Source of the DNA: a bacterium
Lineage (GTDB): Bacteria > Chloroflexota > Dormibacteria > Aeolococcales > Bog-877
Reading direction: 5' to 3'
DNA: 64,000 nt
Assembly (NCBI GenBank): GCA_021827985.1
Contig: JAKATL010000002.1
Coordinates: 1-64,000, forward strand
A program made the translations under genes and the position numbers. This document shows, piece by piece, positions 8,141 to 47,840 of this stretch (position 1 is its first letter; the number at the start of each line of letters is the position of its first letter). Below the pieces are notes generated by a model. The model saw only the letters and a list, made by a program, of their open reading frames with translations. It had not been told where the DNA came from and ran no database searches.

Positions 8141-8141
8141 G

Positions 8142-8669
8142 ATGTTCCTGCGCTACTACTGTGAGCTGGCCCAGGGCTTCGAGGCCACTGCGGACCGCCT
8201 TCTCGAGGCGCCCGAGAGCTGGCTGCCGGTGCTTGCCAGCAGCGCCAGTGCCCGGGCCGAACTGCTGTTGGCAGAGGTCGGCTTCGGCCTGGTGGGTCGG
8301 CGGGTGGGAAAGCACGTGCGGGTCCGCTTGGGAACGGCGATGAGATCTCCTGGCCGGCTGGTGCTGCCGCTCACCTGGCTGGCCACAGGCCCCTCCTCCC
8401 TGTTCCCCGCGTTCGAAGGAGAGCTGGAGGTGGGAGCCATGGGAAGCGGGTGGAGCCAGCTGGTGATCAGCGTGAACTACAGGCCGCCCCTGGGCGCGGT
8501 GGGCAAGACCTTCGACCGCCTCGCCCTCCACCGGGTGGCGGAGGCCACCATCAAGGACTTTCTGGATCGGGCTGCCATCCGCCTGGCTGGTGAGGAGCGG
8601 GCCCTGCCCGACAAAGGTCCGCTTCCCTCACGGCGGCAACCGAGGCACCGGGCGGCGGCCTCTCCCTGA
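8142..8669 (+). CDS. Small SRPBCC-like protein of unknown function
   Basis: 175 residues; the ATG begins one base after the kinase stop. There is no signal peptide or membrane segment. Alternating strands in the middle (RLVLPLTWLATG, LEVGAMGSGWSQLVISVNY) and a long C-terminal helix (VAEATIKDFLDRAAIRLAG) resemble polyketide-cyclase/START-like SRPBCC proteins, a fold impression rather than a family match. The operon position suggests a link with the upstream kinase. Confidence 0.55.
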   Translation: MFLRYYCELAQGFEATADRLLEAPESWLPVLASSASARAELLLAEVGFGLVGRRVGKHVRVRLGTAMRSPGRLVLPLTWLATGPSSLFPAFEGELEVGAMGSGWSQLVISVNYRPPLGAVGKTFDRLALHRVAEATIKDFLDRAAIRLAGEERALPDKGPLPSRRQPRHRAAASP

Positions 8670-32935: not shown

Positions 32936-33375
32936 CCCGGCTCAGGAACCGCCAGGACTGACTCCAGCAGAGGGCGCCACGGAACGGCCTCCCAGCCGCG
33001 CTCCCGAGCCACCTCGCGGGCCAGCCGGCACGCTTCATCCACCCAGGCGATCTCCGCGGCGAACTGTGCGGAGACCCGCCAGCCCGCCTCCGGGACGAGG
33101 CGCCCGGTCTCCGTGGCCACGGCGTCGCCGAAGAGCCGGACGGCCTCGTGCGAGGCGGACAGGATGTGGGCCAGGTGGCCGTGCTCTGGTTGCGAGGCTA
33201 CCTCAACCGCCCAGCGGGCACAGGCGAAGGCCCGGTGCCACTCCGACCGCTCGTCGGAACCGAGCTTCGCGGCACGTGCCCGGTAGTGGGCGAGTTCTTC
33301 GCTGGGGCCGGCAGTCATGGCGGTGCCGAGGCAATCCAGGAGATGTGCGGCCATGAAGCTGGGTTCAGTGTCCAC
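32920..33375 (-). CDS. Conserved-looking helical protein of unknown function
   Basis: 151 residues from a GTG (an ATG seven codons in is an alternative). Almost entirely alpha-helical and amphipathic, with His/Trp-rich stretches (EWHRAFACARWAVEVA; HGHLAHILSASHEAV). No membrane segment, signal or recognised family. It is convergent with ppdK and divergent from the sulfur island. Codon use looks like its neighbours, so it is probably real. Confidence 0.55.
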   Translation of the reverse strand: MDTEPSFMAAHLLDCLGTAMTAGPSEELAHYRARAAKLGSDERSEWHRAFACARWAVEVASQPEHGHLAHILSASHEAVRLFGDAVATETGRLVPEAGWRVSAQFAAEIAWVDEACRLAREVARERGWEAVPWRPLLESVLAVPEPGPQTA

Positions 33376-33551
33376 GCCAAGACTCTACCGCCCACCGCCT
33401 CTCCGGCGCCGCCCTCCTCCACCCTGAGGGCGGGCGCGCGTGAACCCCGGGGGGTACCGGGTGATTCCCTGCTGTAGGGCGTGCTGAGGCCGAACCTACG
33501 CTGGGATCACCCGATCAAGAGAGCGGCGCCGGAGCGCCGAGGAGGTGACCC
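33376..33551 (+). promoter_or_regulatory. Leader region of the sulfur island
   Basis: 176 bases without a gene, upstream of tusA. GTAGG (33475-33479) and CCTAC (33496-33500) form a spaced dyad, and a short GC hairpin (CGGCGC/GCGCCG) lies just before the AGGAGGTGACC ribosome site. No convincing -35/-10 pair is seen. Confidence 0.3.
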
Positions 33552-33809
33552 ATGATGGCTATCGAGCAGTTGACGGCCCTGGAGGCCCAGAAGACGGTCG
33601 ATGCGCGGGGAACCTCCTGCCCCGGTCCCATCCTGGCGGCCAAGAAGGGGATCGTCGAGGTCAAGGTCGGCGAGGTGATGGCGGTGCTCTCCACCGACTC
33701 CGGAACCAAGAAGGACCTTCCGGCCTGGGCGGCCAAGATGGGACACGAGTTCCTTGGGGTAGTGGACGAGCAGGGCTACTTCAAGTGCTTCGTGAGGAGG
33801 ATGAAGTAA
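33552..33809 (+). CDS. tusA: TusA/SirA-family sulfurtransferase
   Basis: 85 residues with a strong AGGAGGTGACC site. The family signature is VDARGTSCPGPILAAKK with the persulfide-carrying C23 in CPGP. TusA proteins accept sulfane sulfur from cysteine desulfurases or rhodaneses and pass it to DsrE/TusE-type partners; in dsr or shdr loci they feed sulfur oxidation. It is the first gene of the hdr-like operon, which favours the dissimilatory role. Confidence 0.9.
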   Translation: MMAIEQLTALEAQKTVDARGTSCPGPILAAKKGIVEVKVGEVMAVLSTDSGTKKDLPAWAAKMGHEFLGVVDEQGYFKCFVRRMK

Positions 33810-33815
33810 CCGGCC

Positions 33816-34259
33816 ATGGCAACCACCATGGCGCCGCCGGCCCCCACGGCGGGAACCACCTTCGGCCCCAAGATCCTGGTGTTCTCCACCAATAACATCT
33901 CGGATCCGGGGATCGACCTGGCGGGCAGCTCGCATCTGCACTACTCCCCCCGGGCGATGACGATCGCGGTTCCCTGCAGCAGCGGGATCGCCCCGGAGTG
34001 GATCGCCTACGCCTTCGACCAGGGGTTTGATGGGGTCTTCATCGCCTCCGACGGCGAGGAGTGCAGCTACCTCACCGACTGCTCGGAGCGGTCGGCCAAG
34101 TTGTTCGAGAGAGCGCAGGCGATGATGGCGGAGAAGGGGTACGCCCCGGAGCGCCTCAAGATGGCGGCCATCTGCTCGGTCTGCGCCGAGCCCTTCGTGA
34201 AGTACATGCACGAGTTCGAAGCCCAGCTGCGGGAGCTGGGCCCGGTCGGGGTGGCATAG
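33816..34259 (+). CDS. MvhD/FlpD-like hydrogenase iron-sulfur subunit homologue
   Basis: 147 residues. The fold-defining pattern of MvhD is visible: KILVFSTNN, DLAGSSHLHYSP, PCSSGIAPEWIAYAFDQGFDGVFIA and ECSYLTDC. Methanogen MvhD uses several cysteines to bind [2Fe-2S] and relays electrons to HdrA. Here the usual N-terminal CNWC is STNNIS, leaving C54, C83, C89, C120 and C123. The gene ends two bases before hdrA, so it likely docks on HdrA. No hydrogenase MvhAG genes are present. Confidence 0.75.
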   Translation: MATTMAPPAPTAGTTFGPKILVFSTNNISDPGIDLAGSSHLHYSPRAMTIAVPCSSGIAPEWIAYAFDQGFDGVFIASDGEECSYLTDCSERSAKLFERAQAMMAEKGYAPERLKMAAICSVCAEPFVKYMHEFEAQLRELGPVGVA

Positions 34260-34261
34260 CC

Positions 34262-36961
34262 ATGGACTACGACGTCCTGGTGATTGGAAGCGGCATCGGG
34301 GGGATGGAGTCCGCCCTCAAGCTCGGGGACATGGGCTATCGGGTCCTGGTGGTCGAGAAGGAGGCCTCGGTGGGGGGGAAGATGATCCTCCTCAGCAAGG
34401 TGTTCCCCACCCTGGACTGCGCCAGCTGCATCTCCACGCCCAAGATGGCGGCGACCATCCACCACCCCAACATCACCGTCCGCACCTATGCGGAGGTGGA
34501 GAGGATCCAGCGCCACCCGGATGGCACCTTCTCGGTGTCGATCCGCCAGAACCCACGCTTTGTCGATGAGGCCGCCTGCACCGGCTGCCAGCTCTGTGAG
34601 CAGGCCTGCACGGTGGCCGTCCCCGACCAGTTCAATGCCGACCTGGTGTCCAGGCGGGCCGCGTACATCCCCTTCCCTCAGGCCGTGCCCAAGAAGGCGG
34701 TGGTCGAAAGGCCGGGTACGTCGCCCTGCACCTTCGATTGCCCGGCCGGCATCAAGGCGCATGGGTACGTTTCCCTGGCGCGGAGTGGCGAATACGAGAA
34801 GGCCTTCAACCTGGTCCTGGAGAGCACTCCCCTGGTGGGTAGCCTTGGGCGGGCCTGCTTCGCACCCTGTGAGGATGGCTGCTCGCGCGGATCGCTCGAG
34901 GGCCCCGTGCCGATCCGCCGGATCAAGCGTTTCGTTGCCGACGCCCACTACCAGTCCGAGTTCCCGTTGGGAGTCGAGGCCGGCTCGACCACCGGGAAGC
35001 GGGTGGCGATAGTGGGCTCCGGACCGGCCGGCCTCACCGCGGCCTGGCAGCTGCGCCTGCTGGGACACGAGGTGAAGATCTACGAGGCGGGGCCGGTGGC
35101 GGGAGGAGCCCTCGGCCTCACCATCCCGAACTACCGGCTCCCGAGCGAGGTGGTGGCGGACGACGTGGGCAACGTCACCGCGATCGGAGTTGAGATCGAG
35201 CTCAATCACCGGGTGACCGATCTGGGTGAGCTCACGGACCAGGGCTTTGACGCCGTCCTCGTGGCGACCGGAACGCCGCGCTCGGGACGACTCGGAGTGG
35301 ACGGGGAGGCCCTGCCCCAGGTGGTTCCGTCCCTGGACTTCCTTGAGGCCAGCAAGCTGTGTCGGGGGATGGAGGTCCGGGGGCAGCGGGTGGTGGTCGT
35401 GGGTGGTGGCAACGTCGCCATCGACGCGGCCCGCTCGGCTCGTCGACTGGGGGCCCTGGCCGTGACCGAGGTGTGCCTAGAGACCCGCGCGGAGATGCCG
35501 GCCTTCGACTGGGAGGTCGATGAGGCTCTGGCCGAGGGGGTGCATCTGGAGGACGGCTGGGGAATCGCCAGGGTCCTAGGCCACGACCGGGTGGAGGGGA
35601 TCGAGCTCAAACGCTGCACCGCGGTATTCGACGCCCAGGGCCGCTTCCACCCCGCCTATGACGAGGGCGAGCGCCAGAGCATCGCCTGCGACCTGGTGGT
35701 GGTGGCGATCGGGATGGGGCCGGACACCGAATCCTTCGCCCCCCTGCTCGACCGCCGGGGAAACGGGACTCTGGCAGTTGATCCGGGCACCCTGCAGTCT
35801 CGGGTCCCCAAGATCTTCGCCTGCGGGGACGTGGTTGACGGCGCCACCATGATCACGACCGCGGTTGGCCAGGGACGCCGCGCCGCCCACATGATCGACC
35901 GCTTCCTCAACTCCCAGGAGTTTGACCCGGAGGAGTTCAATCTGCTCCTGCCCCGGGTCGAGGCCCAGGATGTGCTGCGGCGGCAGAAGACGCACAGCCG
36001 GAAGGATGCCCTGGGGTCGGGCAAGGAGCTGGTCCTGGATCCCCGCGACTTCCACGAGATCGAGGCTCCCCTGAGTGAGGCCGAGGTGCACTACAGCGCC
36101 GGTCGCTGCCTGGACTGTGGGGTGTGCTCCGAGTGCCACGAGTGCGTGAACGTCTGCCCGGCCGATGCCATCCATCTGGACATGCGACCGGAGAAGGTGG
36201 AGACGGAAGTGGCGGCGGTGGTGGTCTCCACCGGCTTCAAGCTGTTCCCGGCGGACCTCAAGCCCCAGTACGGGTTCGGTCGCTTCAAGAATGTCATCAC
36301 CGGGATGCAGATGGACCGGCTGCTGGCTCCGACCCGGCCCTTCAACACCGTGCTCAGGCCCGGTGATGGAAAGGTCCCGGAGCGGATCGCCTACGTGATG
36401 TGCACCGGCTCGCGGGACCAGACAGTGGGCAACCCACTCTGCTCCCGGATCTGCTGCATGTATTCCATCAAGCAGAACCAGCTCATCATGGGAGCCCTTC
36501 CCCTGGCTGACGTCACCGTGTTCACCATTGACGTGCGCACCGCCGGCAAGGGATATGACGAGTTCTACGTCCAGGCCGAGGCGATGGGAACCACCTTCAT
36601 CAAGGGCCGGATCGCCGAGATCCGGGAGCTGGACAACGGCGACCTGGTCCTCCGCTACGAGGACATCGAGCACGGTGGCGAGATCCGGGAGGCCGAGTTC
36701 GACCTGGTGGTCCTGGCGGTGGGCGTGCAGCCCAACCTGGACACCCGCCAGCTGTTCGGCGAGGGCGAGCTCCAGCACGACCCCTACTACTACGTGGAGG
36801 AGGTGGACGAGGACCTCAACCCCGGGCAGACCAGCATCGAGGGGGTGTTCGTCGCCGGCGCGGCGTCCGGGGCCAAGGACATACCCGAGTCGATCCTCCA
36901 CGCCGGGGCGGCCGTGGCCCAGGCCGCGGCCCACGTCGAGGCCCTGAGGGTGAGGTCATGA
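34262..36961 (+). CDS. hdrA: HdrA with an inserted GltD-type NAD(P)H module
   Basis: 899 residues from the ATG at 34262. HdrA N-half: FAD-binding VLVIGSGIGGMESALKLGDMG (about 5-25), CASC (53-56) and CTGCQLCEQAC (107-116). Then a GltD-like module: cysteine domain (156-207), FAD GxGxxG (250-256) and NAD(P)H GGGNVAIDAARSARRL (381-396), ending near 550. HdrA resumes with a [4Fe-4S] region (CLDCGVCSECHECVNVCP, 616-632) and the second half of its FAD domain (CTGSRD, LCSRICC). Ordinary HdrA of heterodisulfide reductase has no such insert. The fusion would let the Hdr complex exchange electrons directly with NAD(P)H. Overlaps the next gene by ATGA. Confidence 0.88.
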   Translation: MDYDVLVIGSGIGGMESALKLGDMGYRVLVVEKEASVGGKMILLSKVFPTLDCASCISTPKMAATIHHPNITVRTYAEVERIQRHPDGTFSVSIRQNPRFVDEAACTGCQLCEQACTVAVPDQFNADLVSRRAAYIPFPQAVPKKAVVERPGTSPCTFDCPAGIKAHGYVSLARSGEYEKAFNLVLESTPLVGSLGRACFAPCEDGCSRGSLEGPVPIRRIKRFVADAHYQSEFPLGVEAGSTTGKRVAIVGSGPAGLTAAWQLRLLGHEVKIYEAGPVAGGALGLTIPNYRLPSEVVADDVGNVTAIGVEIELNHRVTDLGELTDQGFDAVLVATGTPRSGRLGVDGEALPQVVPSLDFLEASKLCRGMEVRGQRVVVVGGGNVAIDAARSARRLGALAVTEVCLETRAEMPAFDWEVDEALAEGVHLEDGWGIARVLGHDRVEGIELKRCTAVFDAQGRFHPAYDEGERQSIACDLVVVAIGMGPDTESFAPLLDRRGNGTLAVDPGTLQSRVPKIFACGDVVDGATMITTAVGQGRRAAHMIDRFLNSQEFDPEEFNLLLPRVEAQDVLRRQKTHSRKDALGSGKELVLDPRDFHEIEAPLSEAEVHYSAGRCLDCGVCSECHECVNVCPADAIHLDMRPEKVETEVAAVVVSTGFKLFPADLKPQYGFGRFKNVITGMQMDRLLAPTRPFNTVLRPGDGKVPERIAYVMCTGSRDQTVGNPLCSRICCMYSIKQNQLIMGALPLADVTVFTIDVRTAGKGYDEFYVQAEAMGTTFIKGRIAEIRELDNGDLVLRYEDIEHGGEIREAEFDLVVLAVGVQPNLDTRQLFGEGELQHDPYYYVEEVDEDLNPGQTSIEGVFVAGAASGAKDIPESILHAGAAVAQAAAHVEALRVRS

Positions 36962-38688
36962 GCGAGCGCAAGATCGGCGTCTACGTCTGCCAGTGCGGCG
37001 GCAACATCTCCGACTACGTGGACGTGGAGCGGGTCCGCCAGGCCGTGGCCGAAGACCCCGACGTGGTGGTGGCCCGAACCGCGATGTTCACCTGCTCAGA
37101 CGCCACCCAGGACGAGATCGCCGACGACATCAAGCTCGATGACCTGGACGGACTGGTGGTCGCCTCCTGCTCCCCCAAGCTCCACACCTTCACCTTCCGC
37201 GGAGTGGCCCGCCGCGCCGGCCTCAACCCCTACCGCTACACGCAGGTGAACCTGCGCGAGCAGGACTCCTGGGCCCACACCGACGATCGCCTAGGCGCGA
37301 CCGAGAAGGCGATTCGCCTGGTGCGAGCCGGGATCGCCCGCACCCGTCTGCTCGAGCCGCTCGACCCGACCGTGGTGGAGACCGTTCCCCGGGCGCTGGT
37401 CATCGGTGCCGGGATCGCGGGGCTGCGAGCCGCGATCGGGCTGGCGGACATAGGCCTTGGGGTGGTCCTCATCGAGCGCGAGGCGGAGGTGGGGGGGCAT
37501 GTGCGGGAGCTGGGGACCATGTATCCGCACGACCGCCAGGGGCAGGAGTTGATCTCGGAGCTCCTGGGTGAGGTCCGGCGCCGGGAGGGCATCGCGCTCT
37601 TCACCAACGCCGAACTGGTGCGCAAGGGCGGCACCTTCGGGAATTACGAGGTGGACATCCGGACCCGCGGCGACTCCAACATGACCCGCCGCTTCGAGGT
37701 GGGCTCGATCATCGTCGCCACGGGATTCGACAGCTATCTCCCGGAAGAGGGGGAGTACGGCTACGGCATCCCCGGTGTCCTGACCCTCCCGGAGTTCAAG
37801 AAGCTGGTGGATGCCAGCGAAGGCCCGCTGGTCTACGGGGACCGTCCGGTCCGCTCGGTCGCCTACATCTACTGCGTCGGGAGCCGCCAGGGCGAGAGCG
37901 GACCGCACCAGTACTGCTCGCGCTTCTGCTGCACCTCGGCGGTGCACACCGACCTGGAGCTCCGGGCCAAGGCCCCCAAGGTCCACCAGTACCACCTCTA
38001 CCGGGACATGCGCACCTATGGACGCTACGAGCTCCTCTACAACGATTCCCGGGAGAAGGGCTCCGCCTACCTTAAGTTCGCACCCGACACCCCTCCTGAG
38101 GTTCAGCGCCGTGGGGACGGCCAGCTGGAGGTAAGGGTCCATGACCAGCTCGCCAGCCAGGAGGAGGTCAACCTGGACGTGGACCTGGTGGTCCTGGTGA
38201 CCGGGATGGTGCCCCGCTCGAACCAGGAGCTGATCCAAAGGCTCAAGCTGCCCGTGGGCCGAGACGGTTTCTTCAACGAGATCCACCCCAAGCTCCGACC
38301 GGTGGAGACAGTGGTGGACGGGGTGGCCATCTGCGGCGCGTGCCAGTTCCCCAAGACGGCGGGGGAGAGCGTGGCCTCCGGGCTGGCGGCGGTCTCCTGG
38401 AGCGCCGCCATGCTCAAGCAGGGGAGGGCCGAGCTGGATCCCCAGGTGGCGACCGTGGATCCGGACCTCTGCACCTTCTGCGGGGTCTGCATGGAGGCCT
38501 GCCCGTACGGCGCCATCGGGCAGCAGGAGCTGGGCGGGAGCCGCCAGGTGGCGGTCATCGACCCGGCCACCTGCAAGGGCTGCGGCGGCTGCGCCCCGCT
38601 CTGTCCGGAGCACGCCATCAACGTACTCGGATACACCGGTAGGGAGGTGGAGGCGATGATCGAGAGCCTGGCCGCGGGGGTCGCCTGA
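36958..38688 (+). CDS. Second HdrA-like flavoprotein
   Basis: 576 residues. N-terminal HdrA domain with the CQCGGNISDYVD motif and CSPKLH (about 1-135), FAD-binding RALVIGAGIAGLRAAIGL (about 142-160) with GGHVRELGTMYPH, CVGSRQGE and the paired-cysteine YCSRFCC, and two C-terminal [4Fe-4S] motifs (CTFCGVCMEACP, CKGCGGCAPLCP). This is canonical HdrA architecture. Two adjacent HdrA subunits suggest a heteromeric core in which this one faces HdrC/HdrB and the GltD-fused one faces NAD(P)H. Confidence 0.88.
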   Translation: MSERKIGVYVCQCGGNISDYVDVERVRQAVAEDPDVVVARTAMFTCSDATQDEIADDIKLDDLDGLVVASCSPKLHTFTFRGVARRAGLNPYRYTQVNLREQDSWAHTDDRLGATEKAIRLVRAGIARTRLLEPLDPTVVETVPRALVIGAGIAGLRAAIGLADIGLGVVLIEREAEVGGHVRELGTMYPHDRQGQELISELLGEVRRREGIALFTNAELVRKGGTFGNYEVDIRTRGDSNMTRRFEVGSIIVATGFDSYLPEEGEYGYGIPGVLTLPEFKKLVDASEGPLVYGDRPVRSVAYIYCVGSRQGESGPHQYCSRFCCTSAVHTDLELRAKAPKVHQYHLYRDMRTYGRYELLYNDSREKGSAYLKFAPDTPPEVQRRGDGQLEVRVHDQLASQEEVNLDVDLVVLVTGMVPRSNQELIQRLKLPVGRDGFFNEIHPKLRPVETVVDGVAICGACQFPKTAGESVASGLAAVSWSAAMLKQGRAELDPQVATVDPDLCTFCGVCMEACPYGAIGQQELGGSRQVAVIDPATCKGCGGCAPLCPEHAINVLGYTGREVEAMIESLAAGVA

Positions 38689-38689
38689 G

Positions 38690-38938
38690 ATGGTCGTTGA
38701 GAGCCGCGACCTGCGCGAGGTGATCCGAGAGGAGCCGCTTCGGCGCCGCGAGATCCTGAGGGCGGTGGCCGACGGTCCACGCACCGTGCCGGAGATCGCC
38801 GGAATGATCGGCTGCCCCACCCACGAGGTCATGTACTGGGTGATGGGGATGCGCAAGTACGGGTACCTCGCCGAGAGCTCCGAGGCCGATGATGATGGGC
38901 TCTTCCACTACCGGGCGCTGGAGCGGCTTGCGCCATGA
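38690..38938 (+). CDS. Small winged-helix protein within the hdr operon
   Basis: 82 residues. Helix-turn-helix pattern EEPLRRREILRAVADGPRTVPEIAGMIGCPTHEVMYWVMGMRKYG fits a winged-helix (MarR/ArsR-like) domain and little else. The ATG starts one base after the hdrA stop and its end overlaps hdrC by four bases, so it is made in step with the enzyme. It may be a local regulator or a DNA-binding fold reused as an assembly factor. Confidence 0.7.
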   Translation: MVVESRDLREVIREEPLRRREILRAVADGPRTVPEIAGMIGCPTHEVMYWVMGMRKYGYLAESSEADDDGLFHYRALERLAP

Positions 38939-39249
38939 CCGCCACGCTCCAGCCCGACCTGGCGGAGAGGGTGGGGATGGACCCCGCCTTCAATCCCTCG
39001 GCCTGCATGAACTGCGGCATCTGCACCGCCATCTGCCCCCTTGGGCTGCGCCATCTTCCCCGCGAGGTGTTCGCCTACGTGGTCCTGGGGATGGAGGAGG
39101 AGGTGCTCCAGCATCAGGAGGAGGTGTTCTCCTGCCTGCTCTGCAAGCTCTGTGAGGTGAGCTGCCCGGCGGGCGTGCACATCACCGAGAACGTGCGGGC
39201 GCTCCGGCACTACTTCGACCGCAACGTTTTCCGCCTACAGGGGAGGTGA
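38935..39249 (+). CDS. hdrC: HdrC-like ferredoxin subunit
   Basis: 104 residues with two CxxCxxCxxxCP motifs (CMNCGICTAICP and CLLCKLCEVSCP), the hallmark of HdrC. It wires electrons between HdrA and HdrB. Length is shorter than methanogen HdrC, as in sulfur-oxidiser Hdr-like subunits. Overlaps the winged-helix gene by four bases and precedes hdrB by three. Confidence 0.88.
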   Translation: MTATLQPDLAERVGMDPAFNPSACMNCGICTAICPLGLRHLPREVFAYVVLGMEEEVLQHQEEVFSCLLCKLCEVSCPAGVHITENVRALRHYFDRNVFRLQGR

Positions 39250-39252
39250 GGG

Positions 39253-40239
39253 ATGCCCCTGGCCACCTCCGACACCATCGCGATCCTGGCCGACAACCTG
39301 CGGCTGCGCAAGTCGGTGCTTCCCATCCCCGCCGCCAATGCCATCCGCTGGACGGAGGGGCTGCACCTGCGTCGGGGCGGGGACACCGTCCTCTACACCG
39401 GGCAGATGTACCAGCTGATCCCCTACATCGAGCAGCTGGTGGCCGCGGAGGAGCGGCTGGGGGACTCCTTCCTGGCCGGCTTCACCGGATTTGGTCGCCA
39501 GGTGAACCGGGTCCTGAACCTCGCCGGGTTCATGGCCCACCCCAGCTCTGCGGAGCGGTCGGTGTACGACCGGATCCCCCACAACGTGGCCCTGCTCTTG
39601 CGTCGAGCCGGGGTCGACTTCGGGTCCCTGTTCGAGGATGACCTCTACTCGGGGGCGCTCATCTACGACCTCGGGGTGGACGAGGTCCTGGCCGCCCACG
39701 CCCGCACCGTGTACGAGGTCTTCCAGAAGTACGAGGTGAAGGAGGTCATCACCATCGACCCCCACACCACCAACATGCTGCGCTCGGTCTACCCCACGTT
39801 CATTCCCGGTTATGAGCTCAAGGTGCGCAGCTACCTGGAGGTGCTGGCGGAGCGCGGCTTCGGACCCACGCGCAGGCTGGCCGGAGAGGTGGCCATCCAC
39901 GACTCGTGCGTCTTCGCCCGCTACGAGGGGGTGGTGGACGCCCCCCGCCAGCTCCTGGACCAAGCCGGGCTCACGGTGCGCGAGCCGGCCCACAGCGGCA
40001 TCATGACCTGGTGCTGCGGCGGACCGGCCGAGTCCCTCTTCCCCAGGCGGGCGGCTGAGCAGGCGGCCCGGCGGGTCGGCGAGCTGCGGGCGGTGGCGGG
40101 CCGGGCGGTCACCATGTGCCCGCTTTGCTTCGTCAATCTGGAGAAGGCAGCCGAAGACGTGATCGCCATCGAGGACATCTCCGACTACCTGTTGCGGGCC
40201 TGCGAGGGCCCGGAAGGAGAGTCAGATGGACAGCTCTAA
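39253..40239 (+). CDS. hdrB: HdrB-like CCG-domain subunit with a degenerate first motif
   Basis: 328 residues. The C-terminal cysteine-rich CCG module is intact: IHDSCVFARYEG, then WCCGGPAESLFP, then CPLC, ligands for the non-cubane cluster that does disulfide chemistry in HdrB. The N-terminal module has lost its cysteines: YTGQMYQLIPY stands where a YxGC motif is expected and TGFGRQ where a CCG is expected. One non-cubane cluster site is therefore predicted, not two. It overlaps the dsrE gene by 14 bases. Confidence 0.85.
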   Translation: MPLATSDTIAILADNLRLRKSVLPIPAANAIRWTEGLHLRRGGDTVLYTGQMYQLIPYIEQLVAAEERLGDSFLAGFTGFGRQVNRVLNLAGFMAHPSSAERSVYDRIPHNVALLLRRAGVDFGSLFEDDLYSGALIYDLGVDEVLAAHARTVYEVFQKYEVKEVITIDPHTTNMLRSVYPTFIPGYELKVRSYLEVLAERGFGPTRRLAGEVAIHDSCVFARYEGVVDAPRQLLDQAGLTVREPAHSGIMTWCCGGPAESLFPRRAAEQAARRVGELRAVAGRAVTMCPLCFVNLEKAAEDVIAIEDISDYLLRACEGPEGESDGQL

Positions 40240-40702
40240 GAAGACCCTCATCGTGTTCAGCGGAGATCTGGACCGGGCCATCGCCGCCTTCATCATCGCC
40301 ACCGGAGCCGCTGCCATGGGCGATGAGGTGACCATGTTCTTCACCTTCTGGGGGCTCAACATTCTGCGCAAGAGCTCGGCACCGCACCACCACAAGGCCC
40401 TGCTCCAGGCGATGTTCGGGGCCATGATGCCCCGGGGCACCGCCCGGCTCCGGCTCTCGCAGATGAACTTCCTGGGTCTGGGTCCGCGCCTGATGCGCCG
40501 GGTGATGCGCCAGCAGAACGTCATGTCCCTGGAGGAGCTGATGGCCAGCGCGCGCGAGCAGGGCGTGAAGATGATCGCCTGCAAGATGTCCATGGACGTG
40601 CTCGGCCTGTCCGAGGATGAGCTCGTCGACGGTCTGGACTACGTCGGGGTGGCCAGCTACCTGGCCGAGGCTGACCAAGCCTCGGTGAACCTTTTCGTCT
40701 GA
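40226..40702 (+). CDS. DsrE-family sulfurtransferase
   Basis: 158 residues, GGAAGGAGAG ribosome site. DsrE fold: KTLIVFSGDLDRAIAAFIIATGAAAMGDEVTMFFTFWGL, and one conserved Cys (C119 in MIACKMSMDVLG). The HHH stretch and long central insert are typical of DsrE2/DsrE3-type peripheral proteins. Such proteins pass persulfide sulfur with TusA in Hdr-like sulfur oxidation. Related to the protein at 45726-46235. Confidence 0.85.
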   Translation: MDSSKKTLIVFSGDLDRAIAAFIIATGAAAMGDEVTMFFTFWGLNILRKSSAPHHHKALLQAMFGAMMPRGTARLRLSQMNFLGLGPRLMRRVMRQQNVMSLEELMASAREQGVKMIACKMSMDVLGLSEDELVDGLDYVGVASYLAEADQASVNLFV

Positions 40703-40715
40703 TGGAGTTGGGGGG

Positions 40716-41135
40716 ATGAAGATGGCCAAGATGGTTGTCGGGCTGGCGAGCGGCAGCGAGGAGACGCTGCTGGTGGCCTCCACCGTGATCGGAGGAGCGG
40801 TGGCTCTGGACCAGCGGGTTGACCTGTACCTTCTCCTGGGCGGGGCCCGAGCCTTCCGCCGGGACGTGGCCACTAGTGAAAGCCCCACCTACGACCACCC
40901 GGAACTCCGGGCCGAGATGGAAGCGGGGATTGCCAAGCACAAGATCCCGCTCCCCATGGCTCAGCTGCGCAACCTGAAGGCGCAGGGCGACCTGCACATC
41001 CACGCCTGCGCCACCGCCGGCAAGATCTGGGGCGCGGAGCAGCTCTCCGACTTCAGCGACCTCGTTGACGACATCGTGGGCGTCGGCGAGTACGTGATCG
41101 CCTGCGCGGAAGCCGACGCGGTCCAGACGCTCTGA
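40716..41135 (+). CDS. DsrE/F-like sulfur-relay protein
   Basis: 139 residues. VVGLASGSEETLLVASTVIGGAVALDQRVDLYLLLGG fits the first half of the DsrE/F fold; candidate sulfur-carrying cysteines are C98 (HIHACATAGKIWG) and C130 (YVIACAEAD). A second ATG two codons in is possible. Fourteen bases after the preceding dsrE-like gene, it closes the first half of the island. Confidence 0.72.
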   Translation: MKMAKMVVGLASGSEETLLVASTVIGGAVALDQRVDLYLLLGGARAFRRDVATSESPTYDHPELRAEMEAGIAKHKIPLPMAQLRNLKAQGDLHIHACATAGKIWGAEQLSDFSDLVDDIVGVGEYVIACAEADAVQTL

Positions 41136-41174: not shown

Positions 41175-41217
41175 GCTCGCCGTAAGGGTGGCGAGCAGGG
41201 CACGCCAGCGGCTGGCG
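41175..41217 (+). terminator. Two tandem hairpins after the first sulfur operon
   Basis: GCTCGCC (41175-41181) pairs with GGCGAGC (41190-41196), and CGCCAGC (41203-41209) with GCTGGCG (41211-41217). They lie 40 bases after the last gene of the operon and just before the aldehyde dehydrogenase remnant on the other strand. No T-run is present. Confidence 0.5.
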
Positions 41218-41229
41218 CCCGAACCGGGA

Positions 41230-41523
41230 TCAGAGCTGGAGCGACTTCGCGGCCAAAAACTCCTCGATCCCGTACCGGCCGAATTCCCGACCATACCCCG
41301 ACTGGCGGACGCCTCCGAAGGGAGCCTCGGTGCTGAATGCCCCGCCGTTCACCTCAACGGTCCCCGCCCGCAGGCGTTGGGCCACGGCCAGAGCTCGCTG
41401 CTGGTCCGCTGACCAGACCGCCGCGGCCAGCCCGTAGGGCGTCCCGTTGGCGATCTCCACAGCATGGTCGTCGCCATCATCACCGATGACGCACAGCACC
41501 GGGCCGAAGATCTCCTCCTGGGC
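41230..41523 (-). pseudogene. 3' remnant of a duplicated aldehyde dehydrogenase gene
   Basis: The last 97 codons (from [10 protein letters not shown] to KSLQL) match the C-terminus of the intact dehydrogenase at 46404-47840 almost residue for residue ([37 protein letters not shown]). The rest of the gene, including the catalytic Cys and Glu, is missing; homology stops near 41523, where the TnpB-related fragment begins on the other strand. It is a truncated duplicate. Confidence 0.85.
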
Positions 41524-42495
41524 GTAGGGGGACTCACCCGGTACCGCTTCCAGGCTGAAGTTCGCTCCTCGTACCGCCAGGCAGAGTGGCTGGCCCAGGT
41601 CGGGGCTCACCGGGCGGTCGCCTACACCATCTCCTGCAACCCTGCCCATGACCGGTTCTACCTCGATGCCAGTTTCACCCCGGCATCCCCTCTTAGGGTC
41701 GCGGCTTACCAGGATCTGCTCTCCGACCCGGCCGCGCGCACCCTGGCGGTGGACCACAACCGTGGCTTCCTCGCCCCCGCCCTGCTCGACCGCTTCGGCA
41801 ACCCGGTGGGCTGGCTGCCCCACATCGCACTGGTGACCGAGGACCGGTCCGCCTGGACCAGGGACGGGCACCTGCGCCAGGCGATCACCGACCTTCTGGA
41901 CCTGGCCGAGGCGGGAGGCGCCAGGTCCATCACCATTGAGGACCTCGGCTTCTCGGAGATGCGCTCGACCGGCCGGGAGCAACACGGCTCCCGGCGCTGG
42001 GTCCGCAAGGTGGTCTCGGGGATGCCGACCGGCGAGTTCTCGGATCGATTGGTGGCGATGGCCTCCAGGCGGGGCATCGCGGTGGTTGGAGTCCCCGCCG
42101 CTCACTCCTCGATCTGGGGCAGGCAGCACTGGCTGGCTCCCCTCTGGGCACAGCATCAGCAGGTATCCGGGCACACGGCCACGGCCGTGGTGCTCGGCAG
42201 AAGGGCACTCGGGCACTCGGCCCGGCGCCGACCACCGGCAAGTCCAGGTGTGACCACATCCGACCGGAGGATCGAAGCGGCGGGGCAACCCGTTGCTGTG
42301 GAGAGCTACCACGTGGGAAGCGTCGGCCCGGCGGGTACCGGGTGCCAGGGCCAGTCCAAGCTCCGAAGGCGCCAGGGCCACCACCCACGTGGCGCAAGAC
42401 CCGAAACGGCGACGGCTTGCTTGGCAGAGTCCAGGTCGGGAAGGACCGCTCGTCCCGACCGGGTGTCGCTTATGGACACTCAGCAGGGACGGTAG
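41524..42495 (+). mobile_element. Truncated, probably inactive TnpB-related fragment
   Basis: The frame runs unbroken to 42495, but the N-terminal half of a TnpB is missing and its apparent start at 41464 lies in antisense aldehyde dehydrogenase sequence. Homology begins near [21 protein letters not shown]. RuvC-like motifs: first Asp in LAVDHNRG and Glu in SITIEDLGF are kept. The third block, usually VDPAYTSxWG, reads [11 protein letters not shown], so the last acidic residue is lost. No CxxC zinc finger. The C-terminal [20 protein letters not shown] resembles Streptomyces TnpB-related proteins. A decayed IS605/IS607-type element. Confidence 0.72.
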
Positions 42496-42731: not shown

Positions 42732-43442
42732 ATGCAAGACATGCAGATGCAAGCCTTGCCGATGCATGGTAGGCACGACGGCGGGGAGATGCTGCGGGCG
42801 GCGCAGGTTGGGCAGCTGCTCTCCATCGACCGCTCGACGGTCTATCGGATGGCGGAGCGCGGGGGCTTGCCGGCGCTCAAGATCGGCCGCCAGTGGAGGT
42901 TCCCCTCTCGCGAAATCGGCCTCCTGCTGAGCGCCCGCACCGGGCGCGGTTCCGAGGTGGTTGCCTCGGGGCGAGCGGCTATGACCGCGGCCACCCGGGC
43001 GGCGCTGCCGATGATCGAGCTGGCCGCGCAGCTGCTGGGCGTCATGGTCGTTGCCACGGACATGGACGGCGAGCCGGTAGCAGAGGTCCTCAACCCCTGC
43101 CCCTGGTTCAGCGAGCATTCTGATGACCCCGAGCTGCTGGACAGCTGCCTCGCCGACTGGAAGCAGCTGGCCGACGACCCCTGCCTCGACGTCAGCTTCC
43201 GCACCGGGCCGCTGGGGCTGGACTGCGCCAGGTCGTTCGTCCGCCAGGGCAGCCTCCTGGTGGGCATGCTGCTGGCGGGCGGCGTCGCCGCCGCGGAAAC
43301 CGAGGACCGTGCCGTCTACCGGCTCACGTCGGAGGGCCGGGGACGGGTGCTCACCTCTCTTCCACTCATCGCGGGCAGGGTGTCCAGCCTGGTGGCGCCA
43401 GCACCCGCAGCGGATTCCAACACGAGGTATATGACCAAATGA
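42732..43442 (+). CDS. HTH + PocR-domain regulator
   Basis: 236 residues from the ATG at 42732; in-frame ATGs at 42741, 42762 and 42789 are alternatives. An excisionase/MerR-type helix-turn-helix ([38 protein letters not shown]) precedes a PocR-type sensory domain ([27 protein letters not shown]... [22 protein letters not shown]). Cysteines in PCPWF, SCLADW, PCLDVSF and LDCARSF could bind a cluster or sense persulfide. Its stop overlaps the SQR start (ATGA), so it probably controls the sulfur genes. Confidence 0.8.
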
Positions 43443-44680
43443 AGCGACTTGTGATCCTCGGCGGTGGCACCGCCGGGACCATGGCGGCCAACCGCCTGCG
43501 GCGGCGCCTGGACCCGGGCGACTGGAAGATCAGCGTGGTGGATAAGAGCGAGATCCACTACTACCAGCCCGGGCACCTGTTCGTTCCTTTCGGCATCTAC
43601 CGGCCCCAGGACGTGGTCAAGCCGCGCCGGCGCTTCATCCCTGACGGCGTCGACCTGATCTTCGGGGAGATCGCCCAGGTGGTCCCCGCGGAGAATCGCG
43701 TCCTACTCACGGACGGCCAGGAGCTGCCCTACGACTACCTGATCATCGCCACCGGCACCTCCCCGCGCCCGGACCAGACTCCCGGGATGGCGGAGACCGA
43801 GTGGCGCAAGAGCGTGCACGAGTTCTACACCCTGGAGGGTGCCACGGCGCTGGGGGAGCGGCTGGCGGACTGGGACGGCGGCCGCATGCTGGTGCAGATC
43901 GTCGACATGCCTATCAAGTGCCCCGTGGCTCCCCTGGAATTCACCTTCCTCGCCGACGCCTTCTTCGCGGAGCGGGGTATCCGCGACCGGGTGGACCTGA
44001 CCCTGGTGACGCCGCTGGAGGGAGCCTTCACCAAGCCCATCGCCTCCAAGCATCTCGGGTCCATCCTCGGCGAACGTGGGGTCAGGATCGAGGGGGACTT
44101 TGTGGTCGAGCGCATCGACCCGGACCGCAAGACGGTGGTCTCCTACGACGGGCGAGAGATCCCCTTCGACCTGCTGGTGACGGTACCCCTCCACATGGGT
44201 GCCGACTACCTGGCGGCGTCTGGCCTGGGCGACGAACTCAACTACGTCCCGGTGGACAAGTGCACCCTGCTGTCCAAGGCCTATGCCAACATCTTCGCCA
44301 TCGGCGACGCTTCGGACATCCCGACCTCCAAGGCTGGGTCTGTGGCCCACTTCTCCCTGGAGCTGTTCGAGGACAACTTCGTGAGCCATGTGCGCGGCCG
44401 GGCCATGACCCGCCCCTTCGACGGGCACGCCAACTGCTTCATCGAGTCCGGGCACGGCAAGGGGCTGTTGATCGATTTCAACTACGACACAGAGCCGCTG
44501 CCCGGAAAGTACCCCCTGCCCGGCATTGGCCCCTTCTCCCTGCTTCGGGAGACCGAAGCCAACCACTGGGGAAAGATGATGTTTCGCTGGGTCTACTGGA
44601 ACCTCCTGCTACCCGGCAAGCCGATGCCCCTCGAGCCGCTGATGTCGATGGCCGGAAAAGAGGTCGAGGTGCTGCCGTGA
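43439..44680 (+). CDS. Sulfide:quinone oxidoreductase-like flavoprotein
   Basis: 413 residues. FAD-binding LVILGGGTAGTMAANRLRRRL, YYQPGHLFVPFGIY and YDYLIIATGTSPRPDQTPG are typical of SQR. C161 (IKCPVAPLEF) and C333 (ANCFIESGHGKG) are the likely redox pair; C275 is a third. A C-terminal hydrophobic/aromatic segment (MFRWVYWNLLLPGKPMP) suits monotopic membrane attachment. It would oxidise sulfide to persulfide or polysulfide and reduce quinone. The following DUF1641 gene is a known companion of such enzymes. Confidence 0.85.
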   Translation: MKRLVILGGGTAGTMAANRLRRRLDPGDWKISVVDKSEIHYYQPGHLFVPFGIYRPQDVVKPRRRFIPDGVDLIFGEIAQVVPAENRVLLTDGQELPYDYLIIATGTSPRPDQTPGMAETEWRKSVHEFYTLEGATALGERLADWDGGRMLVQIVDMPIKCPVAPLEFTFLADAFFAERGIRDRVDLTLVTPLEGAFTKPIASKHLGSILGERGVRIEGDFVVERIDPDRKTVVSYDGREIPFDLLVTVPLHMGADYLAASGLGDELNYVPVDKCTLLSKAYANIFAIGDASDIPTSKAGSVAHFSLELFEDNFVSHVRGRAMTRPFDGHANCFIESGHGKGLLIDFNYDTEPLPGKYPLPGIGPFSLLRETEANHWGKMMFRWVYWNLLLPGKPMPLEPLMSMAGKEVEVLP

Positions 44681-45366
44681 CTGCCCTCACAGAGGCCCCG
44701 GCCGAAGAGCGGCTGGCCAGGATCGAGGCGCTTCTGGCGGAGGTCCGGGAGGAGTTGCAGAGTCGGGCGGTGGCCCGCGAGCGCTGGAGCGAGTTCGCTG
44801 ATGACCTCGCTCCCCTGGCGGGGGAGGCGGTCTCCCTGCTGACTCGCCATCTCGACGCCGACGCGCGCGACTTCCCGGCGGCGGCGAGCCTCGCGCACAG
44901 CCTGGTCAGGGATGCGGACACTCTCGCGGCCGGGATCGATGCGCTTCCCACGCTCATCGGCTTCACCGAAGAAGTAGGCCCCCTGGGGACCGCCGCCATG
45001 CAGAGCGTCAATCGCCGGCTCCAGCAACTGGACGATCGGGGGTATTTCGCCTTCATTCGGCAGACCGCGGCGATCGTGGACAACGTGGTCACCTCGTTCA
45101 GCGAGGAGGACGTCAAGCTGCTGGGCGAGAACATCGTGCTCATCCTGGCCACGGTCAAGGAGATGACCCAGCCAGAGATCATGACCCTGCTGGGGCGGGC
45201 GGCGCGTTCCCTGCAGGACGGGGACTCGGTCACGGCGCCGGAAACGCCCTCCTCCCTGGCTCTGCTGCGACAGCTTCGAGACCCCATGGTCCGCCGGGGG
45301 CTGGCCCGGGTCCTGGCCACCCTGCGCGCCGTGGGGGCGGAGTCCCCACCCGCTGACCGCCGATGA
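44677..45366 (+). CDS. DUF1641 protein, SQR companion
   Basis: 229 residues from a GTG overlapping the SQR stop. The C-terminal half matches the DUF1641 pattern (YFAFIRQTAAIVDNVVTSFSEEDVKLLGENIVLILATVKEMTQPEIM). All-helical, no cysteines, no membrane span. The N-terminal part (LARIEALLAEVREEL) is coiled-coil-like. DUF1641 proteins are often encoded beside SQR-like flavoproteins and Hdr-like genes; the role is unknown, perhaps a docking subunit. Confidence 0.82.
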   Translation: MTALTEAPAEERLARIEALLAEVREELQSRAVARERWSEFADDLAPLAGEAVSLLTRHLDADARDFPAAASLAHSLVRDADTLAAGIDALPTLIGFTEEVGPLGTAAMQSVNRRLQQLDDRGYFAFIRQTAAIVDNVVTSFSEEDVKLLGENIVLILATVKEMTQPEIMTLLGRAARSLQDGDSVTAPETPSSLALLRQLRDPMVRRGLARVLATLRAVGAESPPADRR

Positions 45367-45387
45367 CACAGATTGGAGGTAGTTGAC

Positions 45388-45702
45388 ATGGCCCTGGCCA
45401 CTATCGCGGGCACCCAGGTCCACGTGGACGACGAGGGGTTCCTGACCGAGTACGACGAATGGACCGAGGGGCTGGCCCAGGTGCTGGCCGCCCAAATCGC
45501 GATCGAGCTGACAGAGCCGCACTGGAAGGCCATTCACTTCCTGCGCGAGGACTTCAAGCAGCACGGCGAGACGGCGACCATCCGCCGCATCACCACCGTC
45601 GGAGGAATTCCCACTAAGGACCTCTTCACCCTGTTCCCGAAGCAACCGGCCAAGAAGATGGCGTACATCGCGGGTCTGCCCAAGCCGCGCGGTTGCGTGT
45701 GA
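45388..45702 (+). CDS. tusE: TusE/DsrC-family sulfur carrier with a single cysteine
   Basis: 104 residues from an ATG with GGAGGT seven bases upstream. DsrC/TusE family: EGFLTEYDEWTEGLAQVLAA, HWKAIHFLREDF and the C-terminal arm AGLPKPRGCV with the penultimate C103. The second Cys of true DsrC, eleven residues earlier, is Ala92, so it should act as a TusE-like carrier, not form the DsrC trisulfide. There is no DsrAB, which fits that reading. Confidence 0.9.
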   Translation: MALATIAGTQVHVDDEGFLTEYDEWTEGLAQVLAAQIAIELTEPHWKAIHFLREDFKQHGETATIRRITTVGGIPTKDLFTLFPKQPAKKMAYIAGLPKPRGCV

Positions 45703-45725
45703 CCGCAGACCAGGAGGGATCAATC

Positions 45726-46235
45726 GTGACGACCGAAGTCGCTCCGGCCCCCGTTCCCAAGTTCGACCAAGGTGACGTCGGGCGCAGGCTGGCCATCATC
45801 TGCTCCAAGGGCAACTTGGACATGGCCTATCCCGGGCTGGTGCTTGCCAATGCTGCACTCGGCGAGGGTGTAGAGGTGCACCTGTTCTTTACCTTCTGGG
45901 GCTTCGACATGATCACTAAGAAGACCATGGCCCACCTCAAGTTCACTCCTCTCGGGAACACCGCCACCCACATGCCCCAGGGCTTGGGAGGGATCCCGGG
46001 CATGACGGCCATGGCGACCAACATGCTGAGAAAGCAGATCGCCAGCATCGGAGTGCCGGATGTGCCGGAATTCCTGGACCAGATCAGTGCGTCCGGTGGG
46101 CACCTGTGGGCATGCCGGATGTCCGCCGACATGATGCATGTCGGCAAGGAGGACCTGCGTGACGACGTCGAAGCCATCATCAACGCCTCAGACTTCATCG
46201 AGATGACCGCGGGGGCGCAGCTACTGTTCATCTGA
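45726..46235 (+). CDS. DsrE-family protein (second type)
   Basis: 169 residues from a GTG with AGGAGGG. RRLAIICSKGNLDMAYPGLVLANAALGEGVEVHLFFTFWGFDM and HLWACRMSADMMHVGKEDL define a DsrE2-like fold; C130 aligns with C119 of the protein at 40226 and C26 is additional. The Met/Gly-rich loop (GLGGIPGMTAMATNML) replaces the His-rich insert of the other paralogue. Last gene of the second sulfur operon; 168 bases without a gene separate it from the convergent dehydrogenase. Confidence 0.85.
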   Translation: MTTEVAPAPVPKFDQGDVGRRLAIICSKGNLDMAYPGLVLANAALGEGVEVHLFFTFWGFDMITKKTMAHLKFTPLGNTATHMPQGLGGIPGMTAMATNMLRKQIASIGVPDVPEFLDQISASGGHLWACRMSADMMHVGKEDLRDDVEAIINASDFIEMTAGAQLLFI

Positions 46236-46403
46236 CCTGAAAGAGTGGATGGAGGGGGAGCAGGCTGGAGGGAGGGGTGGGGGCCGGTGAGCGCGGCCGA
46301 GGGCTCGGACACGGGCCACTGATGAGGTTCTGGGGCTTGCGGTCCCCGAACAGGATGTGGGGGGCCTACCGATGCCTGTCGGTCGGAGTCGCCCGACCGG
46401 GAA

Positions 46404-47840
46404 TCAGAGCTGAAGCGACTTCGGGGCCAGGAACTCCTCGATGCCGTACCTGCCGAACTCCCGTCCATACCCGGACTGGCGGACCCCACCGAACGGGGCT
46501 TCCGTGCTGAAGGCGCCGCCGTTGACCTCCACGGTCCCCGCCCGCAGCCGCCGGGCCACGGCCAGAGCTCGCTGCTGGTCGGCCGACCAGACCGCAGCGG
46601 CCAGCCCGTAGGGAGTCCCATTGGCGATCTCTAGCGCGTGGTCGTCCCCATCGTGGCCGATTATGCAGAGAACCGGGCCGAAGATCTCCTCCTGAGCGAT
46701 CGTCATGCCCGGGTCCACCTCGCTGAAGATGGTGGGCTGGACGAAGTAACCGCGCTCCCGGCCCGCGGGCGGCTCCGCTCCCCCGCAGACCAGCCGGGCT
46801 CCCTCCTCAAGGCCGAGGCGAATGTAGCCGCGAACTCGCTCAAGCTGGACCTGTGAGGCCAGCGGGCCGAGCCGGGTAGCCTCGTCCAGCGGATCGCCGG
46901 GCACCAACTTGGCAGCCGTGGCGGCGGCCACCTCCTCCGCCTCCCTGATCCGGGCACGGGGCACCACCAGCCGGGTGAGGGCGGTGCAAGTCTGCCCCGA
47001 GTTCAGAAAGGCGTTGTACACCGCGAACTTGGCCGCCGTGGCCAGGTCTGCATCGTCCAGGACCACACTGGCGGACTTGCCCCCCAGCTCGAGGGTCACC
47101 GGGCGAACCAGAGAACCGGCGAGTTCGGCGATCCTGCGACCCGCCCGGGTGGAGCCAGTGAAGGACAGCTTGTCCACCAGGGGGTGGGTGACCAGCGCTT
47201 CCCCGGTGACCTCGCCTCGCCCGATGAGCACGTTGAGTACACCTGCAGGGAGTCCCGAGGCCCCGGCTGTCTCCGCCAGGATGAAGGCTGTGAGCGGTGC
47301 CACCTCGCTGGCCTTGAGGACCACCGCGCACCCTGCGGCCAGCGCAGGCGCCACCTTGGCCACCACCTGCTGGAGCGGGTAGTTCCAAGGGGTGATGGCC
47401 CCCACCACGCCCACCGGTTCGCGGACCACAAGGCAGTTGCCCAGGTGTTCGCTTAAGGTCATCGAGGTGAGCGCGTCCGCGGTGTGGGCCAGGATCCCCA
47501 AGGGGTTGCCTACCTGGATGGAGCGCGAGTGGCGGATCGGAGTACCCACCTCCCTGCTAATAGAGGTGGCGAATTCCTCCGCGCGCTCCTCCATGACCTG
47601 GCGCCAGCTCCGGAGCGCCGCGGCCCGCTCATCCGCTGGCACCGCCGCCCAGTCTGGCAGCGCCCCTTGCGCGGCCCGGACCGCGCGATCGACGTCGCTC
47701 GGGGACGCCTCCGTCACCTCGGCTAATACCTCGCCGGTGGAGGCTTCAAGGACCGGGATCCGCTCCTGCCCCTCAAGCTCGACGAACTCGCCGCCTATGT
47801 AGCCGCGCCGAAATCGCTGGTCGCCCACGGGTGCTGCCAT
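46404..47840 (-). CDS. NAD(P)-dependent aldehyde dehydrogenase
   Basis: 478 residues. PWNYPLQQVVAKVAPALAAG, the SFTGSTRAGRRIAELAG cofactor segment, catalytic Glu in LELGGKS, nucleophile Cys in NSGQTCTALTRL and EEIFGPVL. It oxidises an unidentified aldehyde. It is convergent with the second sulfur operon, while its truncated copy is convergent with the first, so the gene has been duplicated along with its neighbourhood. The TetR gene is divergent and may regulate it. Confidence 0.93.
   Translation of the reverse strand: MAAPVGDQRFRRGYIGGEFVELEGQERIPVLEASTGEVLAEVTEASPSDVDRAVRAAQGALPDWAAVPADERAAALRSWRQVMEERAEEFATSISREVGTPIRHSRSIQVGNPLGILAHTADALTSMTLSEHLGNCLVVREPVGVVGAITPWNYPLQQVVAKVAPALAAGCAVVLKASEVAPLTAFILAETAGASGLPAGVLNVLIGRGEVTGEALVTHPLVDKLSFTGSTRAGRRIAELAGSLVRPVTLELGGKSASVVLDDADLATAAKFAVYNAFLNSGQTCTALTRLVVPRARIREAEEVAAATAAKLVPGDPLDEATRLGPLASQVQLERVRGYIRLGLEEGARLVCGGAEPPAGRERGYFVQPTIFSEVDPGMTIAQEEIFGPVLCIIGHDGDDHALEIANGTPYGLAAAVWSADQQRALAVARRLRAGTVEVNGGAFSTEAPFGGVRQSGYGREFGRYGIEEFLAPKSLQL

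Follow-up and report, generated by a model that had tools for sequence, protein, structure and literature searches.

The window, a 64,000-nucleotide stretch of DNA, contains a regulator gene that opens a sulfide:quinone reductase (SQR) operon and carries TGCA repeats at 9-bp steps at its 5′ end, a feature that is new here. From sequence comparisons, we put at roughly two in three the probability that the encoded protein is a dedicated one-component autoregulator of the regulator–SQR (type III)–DUF1641–DsrC–DsrE2 operon, which would bind the TGCA repeats and alter its assembly in response to a signal. The HTH_17 domain is predicted to bind the repeats around its own gene start, probably as a head-to-tail assembly in the manner of BldC, and the PocR-type, GAF/PAS-like domain would bind or react with the signal and so change the DNA-bound assembly. 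The protein may thus control both its own gene and the adjoining SQR operon. Repression would be the likelier sign, given that the start codon is overlapped by the repeats or lies downstream of them.

To our knowledge, little is known about how sulfur oxidation is controlled outside Pseudomonadota. The family described here offers a testable alternative regulator of this process with a predicted operator, and places PocR, a predicted sensor domain for hydrocarbon derivatives, in a recurrent sulfur context.

Table 1 Features of the window that bear on the regulator and its operon
Feature	Position	Strand	Basis
Regulator ORF	42732..43442	+	236 aa then stop, on translation; HTH_17 winged HTH and divergent PocR/GAF-like sensor
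Excisionase/BldC-type winged HTH	42789..42917	+	Residues 20–62; HTH_17 E 2.3e-11; TIGR01764 above cut-off
PocR-type sensor core	43020..43298	+	Residues 97–189; GAF/PAS-like in the model
Predicted operator	42733..42766	+	TGCA at 42733, 42742, 42748 and 42763; one 9-bp pair and further copies
ATGA stop/start overlap, regulator/SQR	43439..43442	+	4 bases, read in the sequence
Type III SQR	43439..44680	+	NF049943, 624.8 bits against 525; Cys form, PIKCPVAP
DUF1641 protein	44677..45366	+	Start overlaps SQR stop; Pfam match
DsrC-like protein	45373..45702	+	Pfam match
DsrE2-type protein	45693..46235	+	Pfam match
Second sulfur gene group	33552..41135	+	TusA, FlpD-like, two HdrA-like, small winged HTH, HdrC/B-like, DsrE2 and one unmatched ORF; TusA, FlpD, winged HTH and DsrE2 by Pfam match, Hdr names by reading translations

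Domain architecture of the regulator

An earlier note on this DNA had described a PocR-domain regulator with an excisionase-type helix–turn–helix (HTH). The open reading frame and the HTH are confirmed: in Pfam profile searches HTH_17 reaches 44.2 bits against a cut-off of 27, and the excisionase-family profile TIGR01764 (‘excise’) scores 38.7 against 28.8. PocR (PF10114) scores 19.3 bits, below the Pfam gathering cut-off of 23.9, and the PocR assignment therefore rests on relatives. In alignment A1 (19 rows, including the window protein), PocR is matched by 17 rows at E ≤ 0.01 (best, 4.6e-22) and HTH_17 by all 19. Two SQR-linked relatives (G234 and G262) score 76.6 and 72.9 bits for PocR, both above the cut-off, and were aligned with the window regulator and placed in one tree with it. 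By homology through these passing relatives, the window regulator is a divergent PocR protein.

Other HTH assignments fared less well. The BldC profile NF033787 gives 17.2 bits against a cut-off of 77, and neither the ArsR HTH (HTH_5) nor an IclR-type HTH is among the eight matches of the window regulator up to E 1; HTH_IclR is matched by 5 of the 19 rows of A1 at E ≤ 0.01. Searching PDB sequences with the single protein returned nothing significant (best E, 0.15; BldC chain 6ama_A, 0.58). The genome itself has one further match to the regulator, confined to residues 20–76, and one PocR place. The start codon is uncertain: no obvious Shine–Dalgarno sequence is seen by eye at the ATG at 42,732, and another ATG in the same frame is found at 42,789. 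A phage or ICE excisionase (RDF) would be a small stand-alone HTH protein, which does not fit a protein of 236 amino acids that has a sensor domain and is encoded by the first gene of an SQR operon.

The architecture had been singled out as unusual, and it is not a one-off. PF10114 is found at 43 places in 301 genomes of the window’s phylum, 14 of which coincide with HTH_17–PocR genes that A1 also finds; some others look histidine kinase-like, AraC-like or GGDEF-like by eye. The coincidence of 14 of the 43 places makes HTH_17–PocR a recurring arrangement.

Linkage to sulfur-trafficking genes

The proposed coupling of an HTH and a PocR-type sensor to SQR is borne out, and sulfur-trafficking neighbours are usual among relatives. 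The ATGA overlap that the earlier note had reported is present, and the overlapping gene is a type III SQR by NF049943 (Table 1). We compared 17 loci from named genomes (L009–L026, without the cut L016). SQR lies directly downstream in ten (L013, L014, L015, L018, L019, L020, L021, L022, L024 and L026), nine of which share the 4-base overlap (the exception is L024), and DsrE2, TusA, FlpD or Hdr genes lie downstream in two (L009 and L017). No partner is seen next door in the remaining five (L010, L011, L012, L023 and L025): the contigs of L012 and L023 stop within 70 bp of the regulator gene, a TusA gene lies on the opposite strand of L010 at a distance of 3.5 kb, and L025 has an OsmC protein nearby.

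Eighteen regions from the window’s phylum (L108–L125) give a similar picture, with SQR next door in eight (L108–L114 and L119) and TusA or DsrE2 in six (L115, L117, L118, L121 and L123, and L116 at 3 kb upstream). Two have a DsrE protein and, after it, a GCV_H-like protein (L124, and L125 by eye), and two a large FAD/Fe–S oxidase (L120 by family search; L122 from its appearance and a match to HdrB). Across both sets, neither SQR nor a DsrE2 or TusA gene is in view beside the regulator in L011, L025, L120 and L122. A DsrE2-type (PF13686) gene occurs within 8 kb of 17 of the 20 regulator genes in the phylum sample, against 0.12 expected under uniform gene placement; the misses are G110:C543, G247 and G366, of which G366 is where a contig ends. 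The full order regulator–SQR–DUF1641–DsrC–DsrE2 is found in L013, L014, L015, L020 and L024 and again in L109–L114, L119 and L126, and so recurs in Actinomycetota and in the window’s phylum; L021 and L022 have no DUF1641 match. In one phylum genome (L112, G384; about 7,705–8,402) the regulator is in two frames with SQR adjoining, which may reflect a pseudogene or an assembly error.

SQR regions that lack the regulator are informative about the position it occupies. Among 400 genomes of the phylum, 19 have an SQR above the NF049943 cut-off, nine of them with the regulator upstream; in G366, the regulator is upstream of an SQR that is itself cut. In the other ten SQR regions (L129–L138), the regulator profile finds nothing up to E 1. 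Three of them (L131, L132 and L133) have an ArsR-type gene of 110–116 amino acids directly upstream of SQR (HTH_5 confirmed for L131 and L133, L132 assigned by likeness), and the remaining seven have neither type. The ArsR-type genes suggest that this slot belongs to the regulator of the operon and that the two types are interchangeable.

A predicted operator of TGCA repeats

In the window, the TGCA repeats begin inside the assigned start codon. We scanned the 5′ regions of 25 loci, comprising 24 members of clade A and L119, which belongs to clade B by the tree; L113, L114 and L116 are outside the scan because the script’s motif missed their HTH. TGCA occurs 94 times, compared with 39.8 in dinucleotide shuffles. 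Pairs spaced 9 or 10 bp apart number 37, compared with 0.82 in shuffles (maximum, 5), where the word was chosen by eye in the same sequences before testing, so that the shuffles cover the choice of spacing and not that of the word. The pairs are concentrated near the regulator, with 38 in 6,750 bp there versus 10 in the other 272,903 bp of these loci, and TGCA repeats are found upstream of SQR in none of the ten regulator-less regions. Five of the 25 loci (L019, L022, L023, L026 and L119) have no 9-bp pair within 250 bp before the HTH. L017 has an extra triple repeat in the gap of roughly 490 bp that precedes its TusA–FlpD–DsrE2–Hdr genes.

It is very unlikely that the repeats arise only from a repetitive Met-Gln peptide at the N terminus. 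They do fall in frame, as ATG-CAN or GTG-CAN codons, in the window and close relatives, where they are translated as well (the MQDMQ tail), so that a protein-level cause is possible there; the spacings are mostly multiples of three. Since many copies double as ATG-CAN codons, we tested separately the DNA that is unreadable in the frame of the regulator (18 loci, 3,274 bp). This DNA contains nine TGCA pairs at 9 bp, which argue against the peptide, compared with 0.114 expected (0 of 2,000 shuffles), and no shuffle had more than three pairs at any one spacing; the out-of-frame pairs are in L017, L020, L021, L024, L025, L109 and L111. Furthermore, changes in the tail are mostly non-synonymous, whereas the TGCA cores are mostly kept: one synonymous and five non-synonymous changes between L010 and L012, with 32 of 32 core positions kept, and none and nine between the window and L127, with 13 of 16 kept. 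L013 and L014 are an exception (six synonymous, three non-synonymous), and for L010 and L011 the core (30/32) hardly differs from the rest (53/58).

Clade B shows a different period. In 10 of its 11 members (L116 was not located), GCA recurs at 10 bp, with 11 pairs versus 0.85 (0/500), a period that was first spotted by eye and for which three word forms were tried. Pairs of [AT]GCA at 10 bp are absent from L115, L119, L122, L123 and L125, and clade B shows no enrichment of TGCA itself (14 versus 14.7).

Searching the window’s own genome with RTGCANNNNRTGCA gave 22 places versus 13 for the reversed control, and the triple-TGCA pattern gave 4 versus 4; hence no regulon is readable there. Given that the triple pattern is not rare genome-wide, the argument for an operator rests on place and conservation rather than on the sequence by itself. 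The earlier note had also proposed that the regulator governs the whole island. The repeats stand at 42.73 kb and there is no TGCA in 33,291–33,560, upstream of the 33.5-kb TusA/Hdr group, which leaves control of the whole island unsupported.

As a separate observation, the three loci from bog Acidimicrobiaceae (L010–L012) have kept the regulator, with six to eight TGCA steps near it; downstream, L010 and L011 show no SQR, and the contig of L012 stops there.

The sensor domain and its signal

An AlphaFold2 model built from A1 has a mean pLDDT of 81.6 and a pTM of 0.63. The best Foldseek matches are IclR-family proteins and CodY, with whole-chain TM-scores of at most 0.37 among the first 27 matches listed. 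VIA-align superposes the model on the ligand domain of Escherichia coli IclR (Z 11.1, rmsd 2.8 over 122 residues); further folds, GAF-like and roadblock-like, score within Z 1–2 of this match, and its rows include no PocR structure. As modelled, the sensor is a GAF/PAS-like domain, a fold that does not imply function.

The several cysteines to which the earlier note drew attention are indeed present (C123, C139, C151 and C165), but relatives do not retain them as a set: of 19 SQR-linked members, 15 have C123, 17 have C139, 13 have C165 and one has C151, and C123, C139 and C165 occur together in ten. One reading is that these three residues act as a thiol switch and form (poly)sulfide bridges, so that the protein would be a persulfide or polysulfide sensor like the ArsR-type SqrR, BigR and sHdrR. 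The near-constant C139 and the ten complete triads are consistent with this, as are the frequent linkage to SQR, DsrC, DsrE and TusA and the ArsR-type genes in the same slot upstream of SQR; tetrasulfide switching is described for the ArsR group in PMC12423496. We nevertheless consider a thiol switch unlikely, given that C165 is absent in six and C123 in four of the 19, and that L026, L113 and L114 keep only one of the three cysteines.

Alternatively, the PocR pocket could sense a small organic ligand, such as a hydrocarbon derivative, an organic sulfur compound or a redox cofactor, with the sulfur operon a mere target. A prediction cited in PMC9768040 and PMC11507031 has PocR and MEDS domains sensing simple hydrocarbon derivatives, the fold resembles the ligand-binding domains of IclR and CodY, and the cysteines vary. 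This reading is doubtful, however, as the neighbours are mostly sulfur carriers and not catabolic genes (16 of the 18 phylum regions and 12 of the 17 named loci).

An Fe–S cluster or metal sensor, which the earlier note had offered as one alternative, is highly improbable and we reject it on the cysteine pattern: members of clade B carry the classical C-x2-C, C and CH (C126, C139 and C159 in 11/11, C123 in 9/11), whereas the window protein keeps C123 and C139 and has lost positions 126 and 159, its C165 lies elsewhere (a non-cysteine in 10 of the 11 clade-B members), and only L119, itself of clade B, has the classical set among the 19 SQR-linked members. Cysteines that are not conserved as a set make a protein-ligated cluster unlikely.

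For the autoregulator that we prefer, the gene linkage and the ArsR-type genes in the slot point to reduced or sulfane sulfur from the controlled pathway as the likeliest signal; sulfide or persulfide is plausible in this role.

Distribution and origin

A scan of 84,980 species genomes with the regulator gave 48 loci. Matches in L009–L026 span the HTH and the sensor (L016, from the same genus, is cut by a contig end), and those in L027–L056 cover only the HTH region, or nearly so; all 28 of these 30 that were examined (L051 and L054 were left out) are short open frames of 66–134 codons. In the 400-genome sample of the window’s phylum, the family is found at E ≤ 1e-20 in 19 genomes and 20 places, and the copy in G007 is split over two contigs.

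In a tree of 36 rows, the window protein falls inside Actinomycetota, in a clade of eight (support, 100/99), and groups with L013 and L014 (89/85), away from members of its own phylum. Two loci from named Chloroflexota fall next to a locus of the window’s phylum in this tree, which suggests that the phylum is Chloroflexota. Within the genus, only G000 and G007 of eight genomes (G000–G007; drafts, 84–93% complete) carry the regulator. Judging from these sequences, the regulator was likely to have been acquired horizontally, with sharing probably involving Actinomycetota. Across 18 loci, regulator identity tracks SQR identity (Mantel r = 0.76; 0 of 2,000 permutations).

We tentatively extend the proposal to the family, at somewhat less than even odds: HTH_17–PocR proteins may form a sulfur-responsive class in Actinomycetota and the window’s phylum that reads a sulfur signal through the PocR-type domain, polymerises on tandem repeats of 9 bp (clade A) or 10 bp (clade B), sometimes over its own start codon, and stands where other SQR operons have ArsR-type genes.

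Relation to known regulators

Among the titles and abstract openings listed in our searches, none joins PocR or HTH_17 to SQR, DsrE, DsrC or DUF1641 sulfur genes, with most subscription papers outside our reach. The sensor links the window regulator to PocR regulators (PF10114; PocR/AraC type and PocR histidine kinases) through its relatives and its GAF/PAS-like model; it differs from them in its HTH_17 output, its sulfur-trafficking neighbours, its score below the cut-off and the loss of two of the four classical cysteines.

On the DNA-binding side, the closest parallel is the MerR-like BldC, which shares the HTH_17 group and, with the in silico operator, 9-bp direct repeats. According to PMC5859096 and PMC11963761, the BldC sites are direct repeats in which each subunit takes 9 bp, and RdfS belongs with BldC to the HTH 17 proteins. 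BldC has no effector domain and recognises AATTXXXX(C), whereas the window regulator has a sensor domain and TGCA repeats.

The ArsR-type sulfane-sulfur repressors SqrR, BigR, SoxR and sHdrR have a similar kind of target gene (sqr and shdr), and ArsR-type genes hold its slot in L131–L133, but they differ in HTH family, and their two-cysteine switch is not conserved in the family of the window regulator. The characterised sulfane-sulfur sensors grouped in PMC12423496 are of the ArsR type; the same paper describes many shdr-linked ArsR-type regulators without the two cysteines, for which other modes are possible. The DcmR-type HTH–MEDS protein of a Methylohalobius gene, likened here by its description in PMC11507031, similarly combines a stand-alone HTH with a small-molecule domain; it has MEDS and hydrocarbon genes where the window regulator has PocR and sulfur genes. 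IclR-family proteins also place a winged HTH before a GAF-like ligand domain, as in the predicted model, but the HTH family differs and identity is about 10%, so that only the fold is shared.

Other features of the loci

Inside the Hdr group, an 82-amino-acid winged-HTH protein (38,690–38,938, + strand) with a weak ArsR-type match below the cut-off is another candidate regulator of the 33.5-kb group. The regulator–SQR operon is bracketed by a 300-bp direct repeat (41,216–41,515 and 46,390–46,689; 86% identical), which is the 3′ end of an aldehyde dehydrogenase gene and of which the left copy is merely a fragment; this arrangement suggests an insertion or duplication. Beside the regulator, a 343-amino-acid ORF (41,464–42,495, + strand) has no Pfam match and, by eye, resembles what we take to be a transposase remnant. 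Finally, an inverted GGG..CC[CT] box, GGGnCnTnnGnCC[CT], lies upstream of the regulators of L020, L021, L022, L023 and L026 (5 of 25 loci, versus 0.09 in shuffles); we presume that it resembles the DosR/DevR box, which would hint at a hypoxia input.
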